The notes below the pieces were generated by a model, which ran no database searches, was not told the DNA's origin, and worked only from the letters and a program-made list of their open reading frames with translations. The position numbers and the translations under genes were made by a program. This document shows, one piece after another, positions 1,964 to 40,557 of a DNA stretch of 64,000 bases. The stretch is taken from the NCBI GenBank assembly GCA_944390285.1, contig CALXPN010000006.1:48372-112371 (forward strand), read 5' to 3'. The number at the start of each line of letters is the position of its first letter. Position 1 is the stretch's first letter. The stretch comes from an uncultured Clostridia bacterium. Lineage in GTDB: Bacteria > Bacillota > Clostridia > TANB77 > CAG-508.

Positions 1964-4900
1964 CTATTCTGTTATTGTTATCTGAACTGGTGCTAAAACA
2001 CCTTGAATATCAGGATTATAATAGTCATAAGCAATTACTGCACCTGCTGTTACTACTTCTGGATATAAAGCTTTATAACTTATATTTAGTTTTACTTCCT
2101 TTTTATTTGTGAATTTTCTTAAATATAAATTAATTTTTCCATAATTATATTCATATTTTTCTATTAATCCATTATGTGTAAGTAAAATCAAAGATTCTTC
2201 ATTTACACTACAACCTTGTGGGATATTAACTCTCACAATTCCATTTTCAATATAATCTCCAGAATTATTTACTACTGTAATAGTTTGGTCAATAGTATCA
2301 TTTACTTTTGCAGTTTGAGTAATTGTTTGTTCTACAAGTATTTGCGGATATTCATTATTTAAATCTTCAGAATATGGTACATAATATTCTTTTACTATTT
2401 CATATATTAATTTTCCCTTTTCTAATCCTATTTCGATTTTATTTTCATTTTCTATATTATCAAATTCTAATTCATATATATCTAATGCATTTTCAGCTAT
2501 ATCTATACTCTTTTCCTCTCCATTTACATTTACAGTTAATTTTTGTTTTGATATATCATTATCTTCATTATACATATTTATAGCTTTTAATGCTAAAATT
2601 GTTGATTGAGTTGTTCCCCATGTTCCATTAGCTTTTCTAGAAGTTAATAAATAATTTACAAGTTGATCATTAGTTTTATTATTTTCATTTGTTTTACTTA
2701 AAACCATAGAGAAAAGTGCTGTTGTTTGTATATTCTGATACTTTCCTCTTGAGCCATAATAATCACTTATATTTGATTTTAAATATGCTGTATCAGTATC
2801 TTCATTGATTTCTTCATTTAACTGTTTTATTACATCTTTTGTACTGTCATTATCTGTATTTGCAAACACATTTGCAATTAAGGCTAATGTGTAAGCATCT
2901 TTAGCATCATCTAATTTATCCTCTAAATAATTTATAGATTTTTCAAGTCTTTTATCTTCTGGAGCAACTTCTGATAAAGCCCATGTAATATATGCATTCA
3001 TTGCTAAATCATCAACATTTTCTGCTCCACCTATATATGTAGAATTAATATCATCAAAAGAACCATTAGATTTTTGTTTACTAAACAAATAATCTTGCAT
3101 ATCTTGCAGAATATTTTCGTCTATAGTATAAACATCAGATATTTCATCCATTTCCATTAATCCAAATGCAGTTATTACTGGTTCTGCTGGAGAATGTCCA
3201 TATAATGAATATCCTCCCTTTTCATCTTTAACTTCATATGTCAATAATTTCTGATATCCTTTTTGTATATAATTTAAAGCCTTTGATTTTAAATCTTGAT
3301 TATCTATATTATTTTTTTCTAAATATTTTAATACCAAAACATCTGGATATAATGATGCTGATGTTTGTTCAAAACATCCTGAAGGTAATTTAAGCATTTC
3401 TTCTATTCCTTCAACTGCCTGAAGTATTGGAGCAGGATATAATTTTACCTTTATTTTCTTTGTTTTATCAATCGCATTCTCATTAAAAATCATATCTTGA
3501 GAATAATTATCTGTTATTGTTCCAGTTAAAGCAATTTCTTCCTTCTCGAACCCATTTATATCAACATTAAATGTTCTTTCAACAATATCTGTGAGTTCTC
3601 CTGATGTAGATTCAATTCTTAATGTGTTATTTCCCTCTTTTATAATTTCTAATGGTACATATACCATTGTTGTAGAATTTGCTGAAACATTTACAGCTTT
3701 GTTATATTCTCCAATATTACACCAATCATTGCTTTTTACATTTAAATTAATAGTCATATCATTTTCAGTATAATTATATAAAGTTACAGGTATTTGTAGT
3801 TTATCTGTTACAACTGAATTTTGTGGTAATGAAAAATCTACAAAAAATTCTTTAAATACTTTAAATGAACTTGTAGCAGAACCTATTTCTCCATCTTTTG
3901 TATTTCCAATTGTTTGAATATTCCAAGTTGTTATATTATCACTTATTTCTAAAGAAGTTTCTGCTTCTCCATTTTGTGTTACTAATTCAGGTATAAAAGC
4001 TAAGCTCTCTAAAAACACATTTCTTACATTTTCTTCTGTTTTTATATCTTTTTCTATTTCTTGAAGTTCTGAAGTAGTATCTTCATTTTGTGATGAACTA
4101 TCTTCAAATATTATATTTTCTTCATTTGCTGAAGTTACTGATTGTGCAAAATTCTCTATAATAGAACTACCACTAGAAGTTCCTGTAGAATCTGTTGCAG
4201 ACTCGAACATAGTTCCTGCACTTATATCAGTTGCTTTTGAAGATGTACTTGGTACTATATCATCTGCAGTTTCAAACATGATTTCTGGCTCACTTCCATA
4301 TCTATAATTATTTCTATTATAAAAATTTTTATTCTCAGAAATATTTGATATCATATATATTCCTACAATTATTACAAGCATTAATATCATTCCGAATATT
4401 ATACCAATGACATCTATATTAGATGCATTCAATATAATTTTTCCATTTTGAATATTAATTTTTGGTTTTTTTATAATAATTTTTGTTAGTATTAAATAAA
4501 GTACAAGAAGTATAAAGAACGCTAAACTAGCACTTAAAACTTCTGCCAATATTACAAATGCTATCCAAAATATAATTCCTCTTATTATACTTTCAGAAAT
4601 GGATTTTAATATATTTTCTATTTTAGATAATTTATTATTTTTTGACTTTCTTTTTAATATAACATTTATAACAATTGCAAATAAAATTAATATAATAAAT
4701 CCAATAAATTGTAATAGTGTAATTGAATCATTTGAAAATTCTAAAATAAATGCTATAAACATTGCTATAAAGAATATTAAAGGTACTAAGAAAATGTCTT
4801 TTGCCATATTATATATATATTCTTTTTGTCTATATAAGAATAATGTATATATTATTATTGCAATTACTAAATTTATAATTACACTTATAAAAATAGACTG

Positions 4901-6964
4901 AGTATAATCTACAAAAACATTTATAAAATAAACTAATAATAAAGCTAATATAAATAAAACATTTATTACCGCAATAAAACATTCTTTTATTCTATTTGAT
5001 TTAATAAAACAATATAAGCACATTACTACAAGCACAATTATTGCAACTATAACTGCTTTTTCCAAATATTCATAATTATCATTTTGGTATGTATTTGATA
5101 TTATATTAATATCTTCTGAATCTTGATTTAATAAAACAGAATTTAATTTCAAATCCGAAGATTCATCTAAAACTTCTGCATATAAATCTGCTGCTGTAAT
5201 ATTGTCAGTAAGTTCTATGTCTTGAAGAGCAAGTTTTATATTGTCTATTGATAAATCATTATCTGCTAAATTTAAAACTGCTTCATCTAATATGCTAACC
5301 AATAATGCACTATCTACAGCCTGTCCTTCTTGATTTGTAGTATCAAATTTAATATTTAAATTCTCTCCTGGACTATATTCTTTTTTGTCTGTTTCTATAT
5401 TTATATTTAATGATTTATTTGGTTTTATAAAAATTGTTCTTTTTTGATATCTATTTGAAGATTCATCATTTGCCGTATATATATCTATTATTCCTGATAT
5501 GTCATCTAAATTAAATTCAAAATCATTACTATCTGATGAATATATTTTTAATAATTCTTTATTCTTAAATACATAAATTGTATATGCATTTTTATCTAAT
5601 GTTGACTCTAAAGACACTTTTATATCATCACCAGCATTATATTTTATTTTATCTGTTTTTATATAAACTCCATTTGAAGATGAATCAAGAGAAATTTCTT
5701 TATTTACTTTATTTGAATTCATATCTTCTGATGAAATCTCAGCTATCATTCCTTCATTAGATTCATTTGGTGTTAATGTAAATACGCCTATACCATTTTC
5801 GTCTGATATAACTTGTTTTGATATTTTTCCTAATCTTATAGTAGAATATGTCTTTACAGGCTCACCTGATGCAGTTTTTGTAATAACATATATATCATTT
5901 TGTAATCCTTCAGCTATTTGGCCATATTCCGGTAATAATTCTATTTCAAAAACATCTGTACCACAATAAACTTGTTTACTTGCCTCCACTGCATAATTAG
6001 AAGTGTCTATTATTTCAAATTCTAAATTTAAAGCACCTTCTTCTTTTATCTCATATGTTGTATTAAAATTTCCATTCGTATCTGTTATACCAATTATTTC
6101 TTCACCATTTATAGTTCCTTTTACATCAGCATTTACAACAGGTTCTCCAAAGAAATATTTTGAAGAAATTGTAATTTGAGAAGTCTCTCCTATAACATAA
6201 CTTTCTTTATCTGTAGAGATTGTTGCTTCGAATTGTGGAGTTATATATGGATTTACTGTAAATGTTTTATTTACTTCTTGTACATCTGTTTTTATACTTA
6301 ACTTATATGTACCACTATTTACTTCATCTGCTAAAGCAAATTTTCCATAAACTATTCCATATTCAGAAGTTTCTGTATTTTGAGAATATACTTTATTATC
6401 ATTTCCATCATATATTTCTATTGTAACTTTTTGTTTTGCTGGTTTATAATTTTTATTAGATAATATTAAAGCTCTATAATTTAATTCATCTCCAGGTTTG
6501 TATATTCCTTTATCTAGAGAAATATTTATATTAGATAAATTATCTTTTACAATATTTATAGGTATTTCGGTTTTTTCTCTATAAATACCTGAAGTTGCAA
6601 TAATTTGCAGATTATAATTGCCTGTTTCTATATTCTCTGGCATTTCTAATGATACTGCACCTTTTTGCCCCTTTTCTATTTCAGAAACTGTTTTTGCGCC
6701 TTTTACTTTTTTACCATCATTATTATATAATTGTAGCTTTATTTTACTATTAATCAATTTACCATCTTTATCAACTACATCTACTAAAACATCTATATTA
6801 GAATTATTATAATATATAGAATTTGCTTGTGTATATATGTTTAAATTTCCTTTCGTAAAAAAAGAAATAAGACAATATGCTTCAAATATTATAATTATTG
6901 CTATAATAGATAACAATATTATTTTCCATTTATTTCTTGATATTTTCATTTGTATAACCCCCAA
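1964..6964 (-). CDS. Membrane-anchored alpha-2-macroglobulin-like protein with a multi-span membrane segment in its middle
   Basis: This 1666-residue protein has a hydrophobic N-terminal anchor (about residues 11-35), then MG-type beta domains typical of macroglobulins, including KTDIPINIVKDN-like and YKPGDELNYRA segments. The macroglobulin thioester motif is present as GCFEQTS, with the cysteine at residue 1197, followed by an alpha-helical thioester domain. Bacterial relatives trap proteases by forming a covalent bond after bait cleavage. Unusually, about eight hydrophobic spans (roughly residues 635-870) interrupt the middle, just before a long acidic Ser/Thr/Glu-rich stretch that sits where a bait region would be. 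An N-terminal anchor plus an even number of spans would leave both large parts outside the cell. Start M1 could be M6 (MKISRNKWK). No penicillin-binding protein partner (PbpC), common with enterobacterial A2M, is adjacent. Confidence 0.88.
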   Translation of the reverse strand: MGVIQMKISRNKWKIILLSIIAIIIIFEAYCLISFFTKGNLNIYTQANSIYYNNSNIDVLVDVVDKDGKLINSKIKLQLYNNDGKKVKGAKTVSEIEKGQKGAVSLEMPENIETGNYNLQIIATSGIYREKTEIPINIVKDNLSNINISLDKGIYKPGDELNYRALILSNKNYKPAKQKVTIEIYDGNDNKVYSQNTETSEYGIVYGKFALADEVNSGTYKLSIKTDVQEVNKTFTVNPYITPQFEATISTDKESYVIGETSQITISSKYFFGEPVVNADVKGTINGEEIIGITDTNGNFNTTYEIKEEGALNLEFEIIDTSNYAVEASKQVYCGTDVFEIELLPEYGQIAEGLQNDIYVITKTASGEPVKTYSTIRLGKISKQVISDENGIGVFTLTPNESNEGMIAEISSEDMNSNKVNKEISLDSSSNGVYIKTDKIKYNAGDDIKVSLESTLDKNAYTIYVFKNKELLKIYSSDSNDFEFNLDDISGIIDIYTANDESSNRYQKRTIFIKPNKSLNINIETDKKEYSPGENLNIKFDTTNQEGQAVDSALLVSILDEAVLNLADNDLSIDNIKLALQDIELTDNITAADLYAEVLDESSDLKLNSVLLNQDSEDINIISNTYQNDNYEYLEKAVIVAIIVLVVMCLYCFIKSNRIKECFIAVINVLFILALLLVYFINVFVDYTQSIFISVIINLVIAIIIYTLFLYRQKEYIYNMAKDIFLVPLIFFIAMFIAFILEFSNDSITLLQFIGFIILILFAIVINVILKRKSKNNKLSKIENILKSISESIIRGIIFWIAFVILAEVLSASLAFFILLVLYLILTKIIIKKPKINIQNGKIILNASNIDVIGIIFGMILMLVIIVGIYMISNISENKNFYNRNNYRYGSEPEIMFETADDIVPSTSSKATDISAGTMFESATDSTGTSSGSSIIENFAQSVTSANEENIIFEDSSSQNEDTTSELQEIEKDIKTEENVRNVFLESLAFIPELVTQNGEAETSLEISDNITTWNIQTIGNTKDGEIGSATSSFKVFKEFFVDFSLPQNSVVTDKLQIPVTLYNYTENDMTINLNVKSNDWCNIGEYNKAVNVSANSTTMVYVPLEIIKEGNNTLRIESTSGELTDIVERTFNVDINGFEKEEIALTGTITDNYSQDMIFNENAIDKTKKIKVKLYPAPILQAVEGIEEMLKLPSGCFEQTSASLYPDVLVLKYLEKNNIDNQDLKSKALNYIQKGYQKLLTYEVKDEKGGYSLYGHSPAEPVITAFGLMEMDEISDVYTIDENILQDMQDYLFSKQKSNGSFDDINSTYIGGAENVDDLAMNAYITWALSEVAPEDKRLEKSINYLEDKLDDAKDAYTLALIANVFANTDNDSTKDVIKQLNEEINEDTDTAYLKSNISDYYGSRGKYQNIQTTALFSMVLSKTNENNKTNDQLVNYLLTSRKANGTWGTTQSTILALKAINMYNEDNDISKQKLTVNVNGEEKSIDIAENALDIYELEFDNIENENKIEIGLEKGKLIYEIVKEYYVPYSEDLNNEYPQILVEQTITQTAKVNDTIDQTITVVNNSGDYIENGIVRVNIPQGCSVNEESLILLTHNGLIEKYEYNYGKINLYLRKFTNKKEVKLNISYKALYPEVVTAGAVIAYDYYNPDIQGVLAPVQITITE

Positions 6965-7029: not shown

Positions 7030-7302
7030 TTAATTATTATCATTATTTTTTTTATTTTTTATCCAACCAAATAAATTGATTTCTTTAAAGAAAAAGTCAT
7101 GTAATTCTGGAAACTTAATTTCTTGAAATAAAAAATCATGAACTTCAGTTAAAACTTTTTCTTCTTTTGGTGTTAATTCTAGAACAATAGGTTTGTTCCA
7201 ATCTATTTCTTTAAATAAAACTTTTTTTAATTTTCCCCATATTCCAACTACTGCTGGTAGATTTCCCGTTTCAGATGTTTCTGTTAATTTATACTCTTTC
7301 AT
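7030..7302 (-). CDS. Small hypothetical protein with repeated FKEI-type motifs
   Basis: A 90-residue protein that I do not recognise. A strong AAGGAGGAGAG ribosome binding site precedes the ATG, and a dedicated terminator follows, so it is likely real. It contains related segments LFKEIDWNKP, LFQEIKFPEL and FFKEINLFGW, which look like three imperfect copies of a short unit, and ends in a charged Lys/Asn/Asp tail. No signal peptide or membrane span is seen. It sits between mtaB and the macroglobulin-like gene on the same strand. Confidence 0.7.
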   Translation of the reverse strand: MKEYKLTETSETGNLPAVVGIWGKLKKVLFKEIDWNKPIVLELTPKEEKVLTEVHDFLFQEIKFPELHDFFFKEINLFGWIKNKKNNDNN

Positions 7303-7421: not shown

Positions 7422-8739
7422 TTACTTAATAATTTCTGCTATTAATGATAATTTTTCTGATTTTTTAACTGTTACTTTTTGTATTTTATTACATAAATTT
7501 TCATCTGATTTCACTTTTACCACAAGATAATTAGAAGTATGTCCTTTATAATATCCTTCTTCATCTTTTTCTTCAAATAAAACTTCTACAGATTTATTTA
7601 TATAAGTATTTAAATATTCATTTTCATTTTTATCAGATAATTCTAATAATTTTTTACTTCTTTCTTCTTTTATTTTACTCGAAACTTGATCTTTCATCAA
7701 AGAAGCTTTTGTACCCCTTCTTTTTGAATACTTAAAAATATGCATTTTGTAAAATTTTATTTTATTTAAAAAATTGTATGTAATTTCAAATTCTTCGTTT
7801 GTTTCTCCCGGAAATCCTACAATTATATCTGTTGTTAAAATAAGATCATCATAAGCTTTCCTTAATTTATTTACTATTTCCTCAAATTGTTCTGCAGAAT
7901 ATCTTCTATTCATTCTTTCTAGTGTTTGACTACAACCACTTTGAAGTGACAAATGAAAATGATGACATATTTTTTCCAGTTTTATTAATCTTTTTATAAA
8001 TTCATCTGTTATTAATAATGGTTCTATGGAACCAAGCCTTATTCTTTTTATTTTTTTTATGTTATTTATCTTTTCTAACAAATCTATGAGTTCAAATTTT
8101 TCTTTGAAATCCTTTCCATATGATGCAACATGTATTCCTGTTATAACTACCTCTTTTATACCTTTTTCTGAAATTTCTTCTATTTCTTTTATAATACTTT
8201 CTGGTTTTCTGCTTCTAACTCTTCCTCTTGCATATGGTATAATACAATATGAACAAAATCTATCACAACCATCTTGTACTTTTATGACTGCTCTTGTTTT
8301 TTCAGTATATGTAACACTTCCAAAATCTCCATAATTTTTGTTTTGCATTACATCGTCAATTTTATTTTCTTTTTTTAAATTTTCTGTATAATTTTCAATA
8401 TATTCTAATATATGTATTTTTTCATTTGTTCCCAATACCAAATCAATTTCTGGTATTTCTTCTAATTCTTTTTTTGCAACTTGTGCATAGCATCCTACAG
8501 CTACAACTAATGCATTTTCATTATTTTTCTTTGCTTGTCTTAATATATGTCTTGATTTTCTATCAGACATATTAGTCACTGTGCAAGTATTTATAATATA
8601 AATATCTGATTTATCAGTAAAATCTACTATTTTATATCCTGCATTTCTAAATAATTGTATCATTCCATTTGTTTCATATTGATTTACTTTACATCCGAAG
8701 TGTAAAAAAAGCCACTTTATTTTTCAAAATATTATTCAT
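7422..8739 (-). CDS. mtaB: tRNA (t6A37) methylthiotransferase MtaB, reading frame broken by one base near the N-terminus
   Basis: MtaB is a radical-SAM enzyme that adds a methylthio group to t6A at position 37 of tRNAs. The main frame from 8663 gives 413 residues with NTCTVTN and VVGCYAQ cluster cysteines, the radical-SAM motif CSYCIIPYARG and a C-terminal TRAM domain. The family N-terminus is encoded upstream in another frame: from ATG 8739 it reads KVAFFTL, then one extra base (8697), then GCKVNQYETNG running into the main frame. Skipping that base gives 438 residues, a normal length. Read without a shift, the upstream frame meets TAA two codons after the CTT. The shift falls on CTT CGG A, so either a mutation or assembly error, or a programmed +1 shift. 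Without it the first cluster cysteine is lost. An in-frame ATG at 8757 is an alternative start. Confidence 0.88.
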
Positions 8740-8769
8740 AATATAACTCTCTTTCATATCTTTAACTAT

Positions 8770-8801
8770 AAAATACTCACATTTATAAATGTGAGTATTT
8801 T
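8770..8801 (-). terminator. Terminator downstream of mreB
   Basis: A 32-nt perfect palindrome with 15 paired bases per arm (8770-8784 with 8787-8801) ends in T-rich sequence on both strands. It separates mreB from mtaB. Confidence 0.8.
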
Positions 8802-8825
8802 AATTTAGTATGGTAAAAAATCTTA

Positions 8826-9821
8826 TTATTTTCTCATTCTGTCCATGCTATCTAAATTGTCTAATGCTTTACCTGTTCCTTTTGCTACACAAGAAATAGC
8901 ATCTTCTGCAATCATAACATTTATTCCTGTTTTGTCTTGTAATAACCTATCTAATCCATCTATCAAGCATCCTCCACCTGTCATATAAATTCCTTTATCA
9001 CTGATATCTGCAGCAAGCTCTGGTGGTGTTTTTTCTAAAACAGCATGCACAGCATCAACAATAAGCATTGCTGGTTCTTCTAATGCTTCCATCATTTCAC
9101 TAGAATAAATTGTTATAGTTTTTGGAAGTCCTGTTATTAAGTCTCTTCCTCTTACATCCATTTCCATATCCTGAATTTTTGGAAATACACATCCTATTTG
9201 TTGTTTTAATTCCTCTGCTGTTCTTTCTCCAATCATAACATTATGTCTTTTTTTTATATATTTTACTATATACTCATCAAATTTATCTCCAGCTACTTTT
9301 ATAGATGAACTAACTACTGATCCACCAAGAGATATAACAGCAATATCTGTTGTTCCACCACCTATATCTACAATCATATTTCCAGATGGTTTTGAAATAT
9401 CTATTCCTGCACCAATAGCAGCTGCTATTGGTTCTTCAATTAAATAAACTTTTCTTGCTCCAGCATTTGAAGCCGCATCTATTACAGCTTTTTTCTCCAC
9501 TTCTGTAACTTGAGAAGGTATACAAATCATTATTCTAGGTGCAAAAAAGAATCTTCCACAGATTTTACTTATAAAATATTTTAGCATTTTTTCTGTTACT
9601 GTATAATCTGAAATTACACCATCTCTTAAAGGACGTGTTGCGACAATATTTCCTGGAGTTCTTCCTAGCATTCTTCTAGCTTCATGCCCAACTGCTAGCA
9701 CTTCACCTGTTACATTATTGACAGCAACAACAGAAGGCTCTCTTAGAACAATGCCTTTCCCTTTCACATATGCAATTACAGTCGCAGTACCTAAATCTAT
9801 TCCAATATCTTGTCCAAACAT
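8826..9821 (-). CDS. mreB: Rod-shape determining protein, MreB family
   Basis: Actin-like cytoskeletal ATPase that organises cell-wall elongation at the inner face of the membrane. The sequence starts MFGQDIGIDLGTAT (phosphate-1 motif), with IVDIGGGTTDIAV (phosphate-2) and YMTGGGCLIDGLD (adenosine) motifs. I chose the start at 9821 because AAAGGAGAG lies nine bases upstream and the resulting 331 residues match the family; an upstream in-frame ATG at 9875 would add 18 residues but has no good binding site. There is no mreC/mreD next to it, so it may be the stand-alone mbl/mreBH-type paralogue. Confidence 0.95.
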   Translation of the reverse strand: MFGQDIGIDLGTATVIAYVKGKGIVLREPSVVAVNNVTGEVLAVGHEARRMLGRTPGNIVATRPLRDGVISDYTVTEKMLKYFISKICGRFFFAPRIMICIPSQVTEVEKKAVIDAASNAGARKVYLIEEPIAAAIGAGIDISKPSGNMIVDIGGGTTDIAVISLGGSVVSSSIKVAGDKFDEYIVKYIKKRHNVMIGERTAEELKQQIGCVFPKIQDMEMDVRGRDLITGLPKTITIYSSEMMEALEEPAMLIVDAVHAVLEKTPPELAADISDKGIYMTGGGCLIDGLDRLLQDKTGINVMIAEDAISCVAKGTGKALDNLDSMDRMRK

Positions 9822-9960
9822 CAACACAATCTCTCCTTTGAATTTCTCTAATGTAGAATTAATTTTGCCAAACATTACATTTGCATTACGATTATATTAC
9901 ATTTCTCTTTAAATATCAACCCTTTTTATAATTAATTTATTAAAATTATATTAATTTTAT

Positions 9961-9989
9961 TTGTAATAAATCTAGCAATATGTTATAAT
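9961..9989 (+). promoter_or_regulatory. Promoter of the glycosyltransferase gene
   Basis: TTGTAA (9961-9966) and TATAAT (9984-9989) with 17 bp spacing, 40 bp upstream of the start codon. Confidence 0.55.
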
Positions 9990-10028
9990 ATTTTTTGTTA
10001 TTATAAATTATTATTTTTGGAGTTATAT

Positions 10029-10967
10029 ATGGAAAAAATATCTATAATTGTACCTTGCTTTAATGAAGAAAAAGCATTGCCTTTATTTTATGAAGAATTA
10101 TCAAAAAATTTAAAAAAATTTCCAAAAGAAGTTGATTTTGAAATTCTTCTTATAAATGATGGTTCAAAAGATAATACACTAAATATTATAAAAGATTTAA
10201 AAAATAAATATTCAAATATTGAATTTATATCTTTTTCAAGAAATTTTGGTAAAGAAGCTGCAATTTTTGCCGGTCTTGAAAATGCATCTGGCAATTATGT
10301 TACTCTTATGGATGCAGATCTTCAAGATCCACCTTCTCTTTTATTACAAATGTATAATAGTGTAAAAAATGAAAATTATGATGCAGTTGGAACAAGAAGA
10401 GTAAATAGAAAAGGTGAACCAATTATAAGAAGCTTTTTTTCAAAAACATTTTACAAACTAATAAATAAAATTACTAGTTTTGACATGGTAGATGGTGCAA
10501 GAGATTTTGTATTTATGAAAAGAAATGTTGTAGATGCCATAATTTCTTTAAAAGAATATAATAGATATTCTAAAGGTTTATTTAGTTTTGTAGGTTTTAA
10601 TGTAAAATGGATTGAATATGAAAATATTAAAAGAGTTGCAGGTGATACAAAATGGTCTTTTTGGAAATTAACACAATATGCATTAGAAGCAATCACTGCT
10701 TTTTCAACAGCACCATTAATATTTTCATCTATTATAGGTCTAATTTTTTGTATAATATCGTTCTTACTTATAATCGCAATAATTTTCAAAACATTAATTT
10801 TAGGTGATCCAACAAGTGGTTGGCCTTCACTTGCATGCATTATATTTATGGTAAGTGGAGTTCAACTATTTTCTCTTGGAATTATTGGACAATATTTATC
10901 AAAAACATATTTAGAAGTTAAAAAAAGACCTATATATATAATTAAAGAAAAAAGTATAAATAATTAA
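10029..10967 (+). CDS. Family 2 glycosyltransferase with two C-terminal membrane spans (GtrB/DPM1-like)
   Basis: This 312-residue enzyme most likely transfers a sugar from a nucleotide donor to polyprenyl phosphate at the inner membrane face. It has an N-terminal GT-A domain beginning KISIIVPCFNEE, the LINDGSKDNT segment, and the DADLQDPP catalytic motif. Two hydrophobic spans near residues 230-255 and 265-290 match the GtrB/CsbB/YkoT subgroup. The start at 10029 has GGAG six bases upstream; a TTG at 10017 is in frame but overlaps that site. It is monocistronic and divergent from mreB. The lipid-linked product cannot be deduced from context because no flippase (GtrA) is adjacent. Confidence 0.9.
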   Translation: MEKISIIVPCFNEEKALPLFYEELSKNLKKFPKEVDFEILLINDGSKDNTLNIIKDLKNKYSNIEFISFSRNFGKEAAIFAGLENASGNYVTLMDADLQDPPSLLLQMYNSVKNENYDAVGTRRVNRKGEPIIRSFFSKTFYKLINKITSFDMVDGARDFVFMKRNVVDAIISLKEYNRYSKGLFSFVGFNVKWIEYENIKRVAGDTKWSFWKLTQYALEAITAFSTAPLIFSSIIGLIFCIISFLLIIAIIFKTLILGDPTSGWPSLACIIFMVSGVQLFSLGIIGQYLSKTYLEVKKRPIYIIKEKSINN

Positions 10968-10989
10968 TATAATAAAACCTTATTACCAT

Positions 10990-11022
10990 AAAAAGTTTCA
11001 TTTATAGTAAATGAAACTTTTT
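10990..11022. terminator. Bidirectional terminator
   Basis: A 15-bp perfect stem with a 3-nt loop (10990-11004 with 11008-11022), A-rich on one side and T-rich on the other, lies between convergent genes. Confidence 0.85.
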
Positions 11023-11039
11023 ATTTTATACAAAACTTC

Positions 11040-11465
11040 TTAAAAGATATTTTTTAAATTTAATTTTTCTTTTTCCTTAAAATGATTTAACCAATATTTA
11101 ACTTCTGCTTCATTTTCTTGTGCATTTACAAATTCTAAATTTTTTATATTCTCTTCTAAAAGAACTATACTTATTGTTACTTTTTCAAGTTCATCATGTT
11201 CAACAAACATAGCTAACTTATTTTGTTTATTATTCCATTCATTTTTTAAATTAGAAACTTTTTCTTCAAGATTTTTTTCTGTTTCAGATGATAATTCATT
11301 TTGATTGTTCTGATATTTTGCTGTTTCTATTAATATTGAAATTTCATCTAGTTTAGCCATAATTTCTTTTACACTTTTTTCTGAAATATAATTTGTAACA
11401 AAATCTAAAATAATTATCGAAATTAAAATTATTATTATTAAAATAACTTCTTTTTTCAGTTTCAT
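11040..11465 (-). CDS. DUF4363-like membrane-anchored protein
   Basis: A 141-residue protein with one N-terminal membrane span (about residues 5-24) and an outside helical domain. The WNNKQNKLAMFVEHDELEK segment and the pattern of helices resemble DUF4363, a family of unknown function that in clostridia follows DUF421 genes, as it does here. The start at 11465 lies six bases from the stop of the upstream gene and has a GGAAG site; a TTG at 11492 would overlap that gene. Confidence 0.7.
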   Translation of the reverse strand: MKLKKEVILIIIILISIIILDFVTNYISEKSVKEIMAKLDEISILIETAKYQNNQNELSSETEKNLEEKVSNLKNEWNNKQNKLAMFVEHDELEKVTISIVLLEENIKNLEFVNAQENEAEVKYWLNHFKEKEKLNLKNIF

Positions 11466-11470
11466 ATTAA

Positions 11471-12142
11471 TTATTCTTCCTTTTTCTGACAAAATATAGT
11501 TTGATCACCATTCAAAACTACTATAAGTGCTTCTTCTGGTTTTATATTAAATTTTCCAACTTCTCTTTCAAGCCAATTATAATCTTTTCCTAGTTTTTCT
11601 AAATTTTCATTCATTATTTTTCCATCAATTACCAAATCATATGCTATCCCTTCATAAGAAACATTTAAATTAAAATCTTCTGGTTTTAAAGCTCTTTTTT
11701 CAGGTTTTAATACAACACTAATTTGTCCACTTGTTTCTAAAATTGCAAATTCTACATCTCCTAAATTATTTATATTATTTACTCTTAATCTTTCTTGAAG
11801 CTCATTTATTGTAAAATTTTCTTGTATTAATGCTTTTTCATCGATTTTTCCTCTATATATAAGTATTCGTGGTTTACCACAAATTATTTCTCTTATTTTA
11901 ATACTTTTTAAATTTAATACTGAAATTATAACATGAATAAATAATAAACCAAAAATCGGAATAACACCATATAATATTGGTACACCTATTTCTGCCATTG
12001 GTGCTGCTGCTAAATCTGCAATCATAATTGCAATAACAAGTTCAAAAGGTTGCATTTGTCCTATTTCTCTTTTTCCCATGAATCTCATAACAAATAATAC
12101 CAACACATATATAATTATAGTTCTAACAAGTATAAGTAACAT
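11471..12142 (-). CDS. DUF421 family membrane protein (YetF/YcaP-like)
   Basis: A 223-residue protein with three hydrophobic N-terminal spans, including VLFVMRFMGKREIGQMQPFE, which is the family signature, and a soluble C-terminal domain with KPRILIYRGKIDEKAL. These proteins are widespread in spore-forming Bacillota but their biochemical role is not established. I placed the start at 12142, with GAGGAT six bases upstream; a TTG at 12154 overlaps that site. It forms a two-gene unit with the DUF4363-like protein. Confidence 0.85.
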   Translation of the reverse strand: MLLILVRTIIIYVLVLFVMRFMGKREIGQMQPFELVIAIMIADLAAAPMAEIGVPILYGVIPIFGLLFIHVIISVLNLKSIKIREIICGKPRILIYRGKIDEKALIQENFTINELQERLRVNNINNLGDVEFAILETSGQISVVLKPEKRALKPEDFNLNVSYEGIAYDLVIDGKIMNENLEKLGKDYNWLEREVGKFNIKPEEALIVVLNGDQTIFCQKKEE

Positions 12143-12279
12143 TTTTATCCTCAAAAATACAAATTTTATATGAATATTTTTTGCAAAAAATATTAAAATA
12201 TACTTATATTTGTTTAATAAATTAAATTTTAATTTATTTTTTATTCAAATATATTTTTAAAACAAGGAGGTTTAGTAAA

Positions 12280-12657
12280 ATGGAAAGCAATAATTCAAAT
12301 ACCAAGTCTAATAGTACTATGGGAACTATTGGACAAATTATTGGAAGATTTATAGTTGCTGCCATTATATTAGGAATAACTGCTTTTTTCACACCTGGTT
12401 TTTCTATAAATAACATCTGGTCATTAGCTATATCTGCTATCGTTTTAACAGTTATGGATTATCTTATAATAAAATTCACTGGTTTACATGCAATGGCTTT
12501 TGGTAAAGGTTTTGTCGGATTTGTACTTGCAGTAGTAGTATTATATGCAACTCAATTCTTTGTAGCTGGATATTCTATTTCATGGATGGCTGCTATAATC
12601 GGTGCCTTAATCTATGGTGTAATAGACTATATTATGCCTGGTGAACAAAGCATGTAA
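12280..12657 (+). CDS. Small four-span membrane protein, phage holin superfamily IV (YvlD-like)
   Basis: A 125-residue protein with a polar Asn/Ser-rich N-terminus and about four hydrophobic spans, ending VIDYIMPGEQSM. Spacing of spans and the ITAFFTPGFSI and YGVIDYI segments match the YvlD/holin_4_2 family, which is widespread in Bacillota genomes and not tied to prophages. AAGGAGG lies nine bases before the ATG. A terminator follows immediately. Nothing phage-like surrounds it, so a lysis role is unlikely; its function is unknown. Confidence 0.75.
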   Translation: MESNNSNTKSNSTMGTIGQIIGRFIVAAIILGITAFFTPGFSINNIWSLAISAIVLTVMDYLIIKFTGLHAMAFGKGFVGFVLAVVVLYATQFFVAGYSISWMAAIIGALIYGVIDYIMPGEQSM

Positions 12658-12663
12658 TTTAAG

Positions 12664-12704
12664 AAAAATTGGTTTATAAATATTTTATTTATAAGCCAAT
12701 TTTT
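12664..12704 (+). terminator. Terminator after the YvlD-like gene
   Basis: A 17-bp stem with one G-T pair (12664-12680 with 12688-12704) is followed by T-rich sequence. Confidence 0.8.
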
Positions 12705-12727
12705 TTATTTTTTAAAAAAATTGTATT

Positions 12728-12747
12728 TTTTTGTCACTTTTTGTCAC
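12728..12747 (+). repeat. Tandem 10-bp repeat upstream of the Spo0A-like gene
   Basis: TTTTTGTCAC occurs twice, end to end, 35 bp before the start codon of the Spo0A-like gene. The TGTC core and exact 10-bp phasing resemble tandem 0A boxes bound by a Spo0A dimer, although the consensus TGTCGAA is not fully met. It is a candidate autoregulatory site. Confidence 0.45.
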
Positions 12748-12781
12748 TCTCAATTGTTTTATTAGTGAGAGGGGTTTTAAT

Positions 12782-13471
12782 ATGTTAAAAATATTTGTTT
12801 TTTGTGAAGATTTTCACTATATGAAAAAAATTGTTAATCAAGTATTAATAAATATTGAAGAAACAAAAATTGTAGGTATTACAAATAATTTAGATGAAGC
12901 AGAGAAATTATTAAAAGATAATCAAGCAGATATTGTAATAAGTTCCGATCCTGAGATTATTAATATTGTAAAAGAAAAATTTTTTACATATAATCCATAT
13001 TACATCATTTTTGTTCACAAACGAAAAAAAGAGAAATCTACTAGTACAGTTTTATATGAATACTATAATTCTTCTCCAAAACGTATTATTACAAGAATCT
13101 ATAAATTTATAAATTCTAGTATCAAATATTCTCAAAAAGAAAGAATAAGTATTTTACTTAAAGAATTAGGTTTTGAATTTAGACAAATCGGTACATCATA
13201 CTTACTTGACGCTATATTTTATGTACGTACATATAAAGGGTCTCTTTCTTTTAATAGTCTAGCAAATGATTTGTATACACGTGTCGCAAGGGAAAATAAT
13301 ACAACAACTGATATCATAAAATGGGCAATAAGCCGTTCAGTAAACTATATGTATGAACATCATACAAAGTCTAGTTATAAAGCTTCAATAGGAAAATATT
13401 TACACCTAGAATATCCAGAAAAACCTACTCCAAAACAAATTATATCTATTATTTCAAATAAACTTGATTAA
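12782..13471 (+). CDS. Spo0A-like regulator with degenerate receiver domain
   Basis: A 229-residue protein. Residues about 115-225 match the Spo0A C-terminal DNA-binding domain: ISILLKELGFEFRQIGTSYLLDAI, a VARENNTTTDIIKWAISRS recognition segment, and KPTPKQIISIISNKL at the end. Residues 1-100 look like a response-regulator fold (KIFVFCEDFHYMKKIV, VGITNNLDEAEKLL, ADIVISSDPE) but the phospho-acceptor aspartate is displaced and no DxxMP follows, so phosphorylation is doubtful. Start at 12782 with AGAGGGG upstream. It stands alone between terminators. It is probably not the master Spo0A itself. Confidence 0.8.
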   Translation: MLKIFVFCEDFHYMKKIVNQVLINIEETKIVGITNNLDEAEKLLKDNQADIVISSDPEIINIVKEKFFTYNPYYIIFVHKRKKEKSTSTVLYEYYNSSPKRIITRIYKFINSSIKYSQKERISILLKELGFEFRQIGTSYLLDAIFYVRTYKGSLSFNSLANDLYTRVARENNTTTDIIKWAISRSVNYMYEHHTKSSYKASIGKYLHLEYPEKPTPKQIISIISNKLD

Positions 13472-39467: not shown

Positions 39468-39656
39468 TTATTGTAATCTATCATCATCTTCTGAATAAGA
39501 TGCTCCTTGTTTATCTAAAAATTTATTATATTCTTCTTTTTCAATATAATTTACATTATTCATTATACTAGTATATTTTGATACAATTTCATCTAAAACA
39601 TTTTCTGGTAATTGTCCTTTATATTTAGACAAAGCTTGTTTTATTTTAGTATACAT
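39468..39656 (-). CDS. Small hypothetical protein downstream of the 303-residue gene
   Basis: A 62-residue hydrophilic, helical protein (MYTKIKQALSKYKGQLPENV...) whose start overlaps the end of the upstream gene by 11 bases, with GGAG inside that gene as binding site. A terminator follows directly. I do not recognise it; coupling suggests it works with the upstream protein. Confidence 0.65.
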   Translation of the reverse strand: MYTKIKQALSKYKGQLPENVLDEIVSKYTSIMNNVNYIEKEEYNKFLDKQGASYSEDDDRLQ

Positions 39657-40557
39657 TATCCCGAGCTTCTCCGTAAGATATCAGTAAATTTTCTAACATT
39701 TTACCGAATAATCCATCATAATTTTCACCAAATATTTCTTTTATTTGTTCATCCAAGGCTCTTGCATCAGATTTTTCCATACATTCTCTAGTTTCTGGCA
39801 GGTAATTTACATACTTTCTACAACTATCAAAAACTTCCTGTGGATATAATGCTTCATAAGATTCTTGTACTTCTTTAAAAATATTATTATCCTCGTCTTC
39901 CCATACTACATATCCCCTTTTTTCCAACTGCTTAGATAATAAATAAGAAACAAAACAATTTATAGCTCTATAATCTTCTCTAAATTTATGATCACTATCT
40001 TGTACATTATTTCTTAATAAATGATATGTAGCTTGAGGCTTTTTAGAATTATCCGTATTTCTAGAATCTAAAAATGGTGTTATTCCTGAAATTTCACTTT
40101 CTGTTTTTAATATAACTTCAGTCTGATTATTGAAATTATAAATCAATCTCCAAACTTCATCTGTATAAAAATCTTGTAAAGCATGTGCTAATACCAAAAT
40201 ACCATAATTTTCATTACTTTCATTTGAAAACATCTCTAAATTATTTCTTATTAAGTTCTTTATTAAAATAGTTTCATCAACACATGATTTTTTAGCTATC
40301 ATTTGTTTTGAAAAATCTGAAAGATAAAACTTCATATCTTCTTTTTTAGATTTTTTTAATTCTTCAAGTGTTGTTGGCATTTTCCAATATGAACCTTTAG
40401 TAAAATGCGTTACTTGTCTTGGCATCCAACATCTATATGAATCTAATATTCCCACAGCTCCTAAGTCTTTTTTTACAAACTCCATTACTTGATCTTTATC
40501 TTTCAGTTCACCATCTTTAGATAATATTGTTGCTAAAATATGTACATCTTGATTCAT
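39646..40557 (-). CDS. Hypothetical protein, 303 residues
   Basis: I do not recognise this cytoplasmic protein. It begins MNQDVHILATILSKDGELKD, is rich in Glu, Asp and Lys, and has a central histidine/aspartate-containing stretch (LVLAHALQDFYTDEVWRLI). No signal peptide, membrane span or nucleotide-binding motif is seen. AGGAGAAG lies before the ATG. It forms a two-gene unit with the small protein that overlaps its end, and is divergent from dapA. Confidence 0.7.
   Translation of the reverse strand: MNQDVHILATILSKDGELKDKDQVMEFVKKDLGAVGILDSYRCWMPRQVTHFTKGSYWKMPTTLEELKKSKKEDMKFYLSDFSKQMIAKKSCVDETILIKNLIRNNLEMFSNESNENYGILVLAHALQDFYTDEVWRLIYNFNNQTEVILKTESEISGITPFLDSRNTDNSKKPQATYHLLRNNVQDSDHKFREDYRAINCFVSYLLSKQLEKRGYVVWEDEDNNIFKEVQESYEALYPQEVFDSCRKYVNYLPETRECMEKSDARALDEQIKEIFGENYDGLFGKMLENLLISYGEARDNVY

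Follow-up and report, generated by a model that had tools for sequence, protein, structure and literature searches.

Here we describe a family of bacterial macroglobulins with predicted membrane spans at the bait position, starting from a gene in a 64,000-nucleotide stretch of DNA (hereafter the window) of an uncultured Clostridia bacterium (GenBank assembly GCA_944390285.1, contig CALXPN010000006.1, positions 48,372 to 112,371). The gene (1964..6949, reverse strand) encodes a protein of 1661 aa, which by its domains and motif is an alpha-2-macroglobulin (A2M) with a thioester motif. Eight predicted membrane spans interrupt the chain, most likely inside a split MG6 domain, and directly behind them a variable, model-disordered linker occupies the bait position, behind the first half of MG6 and ahead of MG7, where it would act as the bait. 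The usual picture of a macroglobulin is a cage that is soluble or anchored at one end, and a family with membrane segments at the bait means that the trigger of the machine can be linked to the membrane. We favour, with some reserve, the view that the protein is a surface protease trap, the start of the bait being likely bolted to the membrane and the bait serving as a leash to be severed by an attacking protease. New here is that one point in the split MG6, with conserved flanks, carries two, four (in one case) or eight spans.

The inserted membrane domain and its predicted topology

Hydropathy, charge profile and structure models delimit the inserted domain to residues 630-866 (4352..5062, reverse strand, as are all features of the gene). 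Residue numbers are counted from the ATG at 6949 and are five less than those of the first-pass annotation of this DNA, which had proposed about eight inserted spans. In the window protein alone, hydropathy yields one N-terminal span (10-28) and seven 19-residue windows between 631 and 865. A protein search with residues 570-1240 found 274 proteins, the window's own included, that match across the insert region. Of these, 120 were listed, and those longer than 1600 aa among the window protein and the 119 listed matches form the 109-member set used below. The mean hydropathy profile of this set has eight peaks, two of them in the stretch 786-827, where the single protein gives one window. A simple span counter run on these 120 proteins found seven or eight spans behind the N-terminal one in 112 and three, six or nine in the other 8. 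AlphaFold2 folded residues 610-875 into a helical bundle spanning residues 626-874, with a mean predicted local distance difference test score (pLDDT) of 87.1 and a predicted template modelling score (pTM) of 0.80. The eight spans are thus borne out by the profile and the bundle, and in the structure models the hydrophobic stretches are not the buried core of soluble domains.

The N-terminal membrane anchor comprises residues 10-29 (6863..6922) by hydropathy and coincides with a model helix at 2-32; in the preceding residues 1-9, Lys and Arg outnumber Asp and Glu in 109/109 members. Across the same set the charge pattern of the insert fits eight spans with both halves of the macroglobulin outside, as had been argued from the even number of spans; the evidence for this topology is good but falls short of proof.

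Within the membrane domain, conservation is highest on the cytoplasmic side, at about 701-713 (Y701 is invariant, 109/109) and 818-838, and P723 and G853 are also among its best-conserved residues. This position, together with a number of spans that exceeds the need of an anchor, would suit a sensor or transporter, in which a cut in the bait would change the tension on span 8, a signal relayed by the cytoplasmic loops to a partner in the cell. We regard such a role as rather improbable. The relatives described below manage with a two-span hairpin, or four spans in one case. The domain has no match in Pfam, NCBIfam, Foldseek or VIA-align, although a missing match does not show a new fold, and a protein search with the segment alone gave no stand-alone homologue. 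Nine span columns are polar in more than half of the 109 members, each of them at most six residues from a span end. The named neighbours of the gene are PGK, GAPDH, MtaB, MreB and a glycosyltransferase; a conserved 90-aa open reading frame (ORF) without a match could still be a partner. The coupling to signalling or transport that the first-pass annotation had suggested is not supported by these results; the conserved cytoplasmic loops leave room for signalling.

The linker at the bait position

Model pLDDT, low conservation and the alignment with human A2M place an acidic Ser/Thr/Glu/Asp-rich linker at residues 867-972 (4034..4351). It is predicted to be disordered: in a model of residues 1-1135, residues 872-961 have a pLDDT below 50, at about 30. 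Over the 109 members the linker is 64-124 aa long and poorly conserved in sequence, with 17.1% S, 10.8% E, 9.8% D and 8.7% T. The alignment with human A2M (6tav) sets in at the C-terminal edge of the linker, with chain residue 723. Composition and modelled disorder agree with the bait-like linker recognised earlier behind the spans. The insert itself had been placed before the bait, and this stands in so far as the linker behind it is at the bait position, but the insert most likely lies within the split MG6 domain. Ahead of it, a PF07703 (A2M_BRD) match covers residues 429-561 (5267..5665; E 7.5e-9), the end of which is probably the first part of MG6, followed by a conserved collar with short helices at residues 562-610 (5120..5266), delimited by conservation and the model. 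Behind the linker, PF00207 (A2M, MG7 region) matches residues 983-1070 (3740..4003; E 6.6e-19).

Distribution of the family and controls

The thioester motif GCFEQ (residues 1191-1195, 3365..3379), noted as intact from the start, is present in 109/109 members of the set and in 237/237 family proteins checked. The window protein shares 42-60% identity with the 39 relatives in the alignment, and a second protein search found 548 proteins, 120 of them listed. With 274 proteins matching across the insert region, the architecture is common to many genomes and not a single case. In genome surveys, PF00207 occurred in 18 of 143 genomes at the level of the order and in 36 of 245 at that of the class, and PF07678 in 44 of 398 genomes of the phylum. 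In its own 1.66-Mb genome the macroglobulin gene is the single match.

A scan of genome contigs yielded 32 loci, nine of them with a shorter gene. Sources of the named relatives are roe deer, sheep, rabbit and termite-gut metagenomes; the termite origin of some is our reading of their isolate codes. Counting the window, GAPDH lies near the gene in 12 of 33 loci, and MtaB, MreB, PGK and the 90-aa ORF in 10 each; these shared neighbours point to vertical inheritance within the genus. The named genomes of the scan are all metagenome-assembled and several relatives are split into two frames, which would suit a fusion, an assembly or an annotation artefact. We hold this to be extremely improbable in view of the 274 proteins, the identity to 39 relatives, the charge pattern kept over 109 members and the recurring neighbours. 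A fusion or sequencing error that joined two genes is ruled out as the origin by the homologues across many genomes.

As a control, macroglobulins of the same phylum were surveyed by a family profile search (ORFs of at least 600 aa, E <= 1). In 95 fetched loci, 11 of them without a match, 90 ORFs matched and 70 were measurable at both edges of the insert site; the 20 unmeasurable ones include four of this family (L110, L114 and both halves of L112). No span was found at the insert site in 70/70 measurable proteins, in which the corresponding distance is 53-92 residues after exclusion of one misread negative value. The collar at 562-610 was not seen in the ten insert-free relatives printed, eight of which have CxEQ. 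As to carriage by mobile elements, two patterns found no relative in IMG/VR phage sequences, and among plasmids seven records matched A2M distantly and in part, all with a coverage below 80%. Literature searches, which covered open PMC papers, turned up no title or abstract on a macroglobulin that has membrane spans inserted or a lipobox inside the chain.

Two-, four- and eight-span types and an internal lipobox

Eight of the nine shorter loci encode two inserted spans and one (L042) four, the four-span type being seen in this one protein. Two-, four- and eight-span types share the collar as well as the flanks of the insert, NDLSIDNIKLAL...DLYA before it and VR..FLES/FLET behind it. Of the 237 proteins compared, 21 resisted delimitation and do not enter the span count. 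Short inserts have exactly two spans in 38/38, and the 178 long inserts have eight in 102, seven in 73, nine in 2 and six in 1, under a rough counting rule by which spans lying close together are merged. A tree was computed from the MG7-CUB-TED columns alone with 54 chosen rows. All insert-bearing rows fall on one side of a branch with a Shimodaira-Hasegawa-like approximate likelihood ratio test (SH-aLRT) value of 99, or 96 without three long rows; support is 100 for the two-span group, and 70 and 77 for the eight-span group.

In the two-span proteins the second span terminates in a lipobox (a lipoprotein signal motif) preceded by K/R, and the linker follows immediately. It was found by pattern in 41/41 (P0122-P0162), in 39/41 with a hydropathy filter and in 34 in a strict form; P0136, P0137 and P0139, which are among the 21 undelimited proteins, are counted here as two-span. 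The pattern is also present in 8/8 two-span loci (L043-L048, L052, L055), several of which encode the same proteins. The residue after the lipobox Cys is G, S or A, and the linker behind that Cys is 57-119 aa long. In the first 60 residues no lipobox was found in the 41 two-span or the 196 other family members. Three of the 196 have the internal pattern, one of which (P0179, an 861-aa fragment) is probably a two-span protein sorted wrongly. None of 89 ORFs longer than 1200 aa from the survey loci has an internal lipobox; these were picked by length alone and two (L110, L114) belong to this family.

From these motifs, signal peptidase II is predicted to cut the two-span type and the Cys to be lipidated, making the C-terminal half a lipoprotein. 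The two-span relatives would then be two-chain proteins with a lipidated thioester chain. This internal lipobox is the second unusual feature of the family, and it leads to a clear prediction, namely two chains, one of them lipidated. Common to the family is a linker the start of which is fixed to the membrane, by the last span or, as predicted, by a lipid.

A proposed mechanism

In the mechanism that we propose, a protease reaching the membrane would cut the linker. The cut would free the MG7-CUB-TED arm from its membrane leash. The arm would stay docked on the ring of MG1-MG6, itself still anchored through the membrane domain and the N-terminal span. It would then swing, and the thioester, once exposed, could bind the protease covalently on the surface of the cell. 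Both the cleavage and the capture are inferred here, as is any signalling. Anchoring of the bait is the simplest common function, because two spans suffice in the relatives, and a sensor role of the larger membrane domain is possible. The leash reading fits the E. coli A2M, which is reported to be triggered by the untethering of a disordered bait piece (PMC4498604).

As to the chemistry, the site in the thioester domain (TED) that reads VIHSELQGG in CD109 reads STYIGG in this family, and a His anywhere in 1296-1312 is found in 8 of 109 members. In macroglobulins, lack of this His is associated with coupling to amines and with the protease type. By analogy with C3 and A2M, the STYIGG site would therefore speak for coupling to amines, that is, to proteases.

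Several observations weigh against the leash reading. DSSP gives seven helices in the membrane-domain model, one of which (686-737) measures 52 residues and can hold both spans 3 and 4 only if it bends; if they were one span, the two halves would lie on opposite sides of the membrane. Crude counters give six to nine spans for single members, the residues ahead of span 1 carry balanced charges (more K/R than D/E in 50% of 109), among the inside loops loop 7 is the weakest in the charge pattern, and the model of residues 1-1135, with the TED outside it, has a pTM of 0.66. The conserved collar and cytoplasmic loops suggest a role beyond mere anchoring. Occurrence is patchy, the gene being seen in 9 of 36 genomes of the window's genus, many of which are incomplete. 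The tree came with warnings that many rows differ in composition and that long internal branches meet between the outgroup and the family; with the modest values for the eight-span group, no order of the span numbers could be read from it. Finally, the linkers of the two-span type are Ala/Pro-rich and more spacer-like than protease bait, so the linker could be a mere spacer.

If so, the second anchorage might serve only surface retention, and the protein could be a covalent adhesin or a wall-binding protein that acts through its thioester. Linkers that are disordered and poorly conserved would suit such a protein as well, and covalent thioester adhesins exist in Gram-positive bacteria (PMC4450167). 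We find this doubtful: the protein has the full macroglobulin ring, CD109 as the nearest fold and the linker at the bait position, and neither STYIGG nor the scarcity of His at 1296-1312 favours it.

The protease trap with a leashed bait can also be taken further. The family might be a bacterial equivalent of complement whose bait staples it to the membrane. The start of the bait would be held by a polytopic domain or by the lipid on an internal lipoprotein Cys (giving a two-chain, C3-like molecule with the thioester chain as a lipoprotein); a single cut would arm the thioester and be felt by the membrane domain, which would report the attack via its cytoplasmic loops. We offer this as a speculation that is unlikely to hold in full. 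The family bears on how gut bacteria might withstand proteases.

Gene start, further domains and neighbours

The ORF 1964-6964 on the reverse strand was confirmed, and its likely start is the ATG at 6949 rather than the TTG at 6964, with the stop at 1964-1966. Eight bases 5' of the ATG lies a GGGGG stretch (6958..6962) that resembles a ribosome-binding site and may act as one. The protein has the hallmarks of the alpha-macroglobulin superfamily, namely MG domains (MG2, MG6/BRD, MG7 and a C-terminal MG) and a thioester domain with CxEQ. MG2 covers residues 144-231 (6257..6520; PF01835, E 1.1e-21), the TED residues 1178-1460 (2570..3418; PF07678, E 1.3e-41) and the C-terminal receptor-binding-type MG domain residues 1571-1649 (2003..2239; PF07677, E 1.4e-9). 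The 90-aa ORF that accompanies the gene in 10 of the 33 loci is found at 7030-7302 (reverse strand) and has no NCBIfam match. PADLOC gave no match to an anti-phage system.

A CGG codon in the clade

In four A2M relatives the gene is divided into two frames, and all four breaks are at a CGG codon (L034 9658-9722, L036 9595-9659, L038 9181-9194, L040 10801-10886). In L040 (ORFs 7926-10886 and 10801-13050) the break falls within the linker, behind span 8 and ahead of the conserved NIRNVFLES. In the window and 23 related loci (ORFs of at least 90 aa), CGG is rare, with 52 occurrences among 135616 codons. It is at most 15 codons from the ORF end in 40% of cases, compared to 4-6% for CGC, CGA, AGG, CCG and TCG, and the +1 frame behind it is open for a median of 39 codons (6-18 in controls), often for hundreds. 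One window ORF (39649-40557, reverse strand) has GCT CGG at codon 299 of 303 and 64 open codons in +1. CGG is also used inside ORFs in loci such as L041 and L049. By these patterns, CGG behaves like a +1 frameshift site or an unassigned codon in part of the clade. The Rfam tRNA model found 27 tRNAs in the window's genome, none of which reads as Arg, probably due to an assembly gap. CGG reassignments are known in low-GC Firmicutes (PMC8629427), and a literature search found no report of the present case.

Comparison with known systems

CD109 has the nearest fold and the same domain order as the window protein. It carries a C-terminal glycosylphosphatidylinositol (GPI) anchor, whereas the window protein has no C-terminal hydrophobic stretch by hydropathy; GPI anchoring is not a bacterial process. 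We know of no membrane spans in the MG6 of CD109, human A2M or the insect TEP1.

Among bacterial A2Ms, ECAM has an N-terminal lipobox, which is absent from the first 60 residues throughout this family (0/196 and 0/41). With type I A2Ms (ECAM, SaA2M) the window protein shares the CxEQ thioester, a bait position between an MG6-type domain and MG7, and anchoring at the inner membrane, as these are portrayed in PMC4498604 and PMC5764988. The same papers give type I two extra N-terminal MG domains, an anchor at the N-terminus and a PBP1c operon, and the first-pass statement that bacterial A2Ms are tethered at the N-terminus agrees with PMC4498604. In contrast, the window protein begins at MG1, has a second anchorage at the bait and has no adjacent PBP1c gene. 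Only 35 residues, helix included, precede the first strand in the model, and the first pair aligned with Salmonella A2M (4u48) is model residue 31 with chain residue 256; the two extra domains are thus missing. Its neighbours are PGK, GAPDH, the 90-aa ORF, MtaB and MreB, and of the three transglycosylase genes in the genome only one is on the A2M contig, about 34 kb away. Type II A2M (MagD) is described as lacking CxEQ and reaching the membrane via its partner MagB (PMC5764988), whereas the window protein has GCFEQ. MagD and other clostridial A2Ms likewise have macroglobulin domains with a bait region.

Complement C3 also has its MG6 domain divided, at the corresponding point, by an insertion that contains the activation site (the anaphylatoxin domain and the cut between the beta and alpha chains). 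The insertion of C3 is a soluble domain, whereas that of the present family consists of membrane spans. If the predicted cut at the lipobox takes place, the two-span relatives would consist of two chains, divided close to where C3 is. A family of bacterial surface proteins resembles the split-MG6 logic of complement C3.
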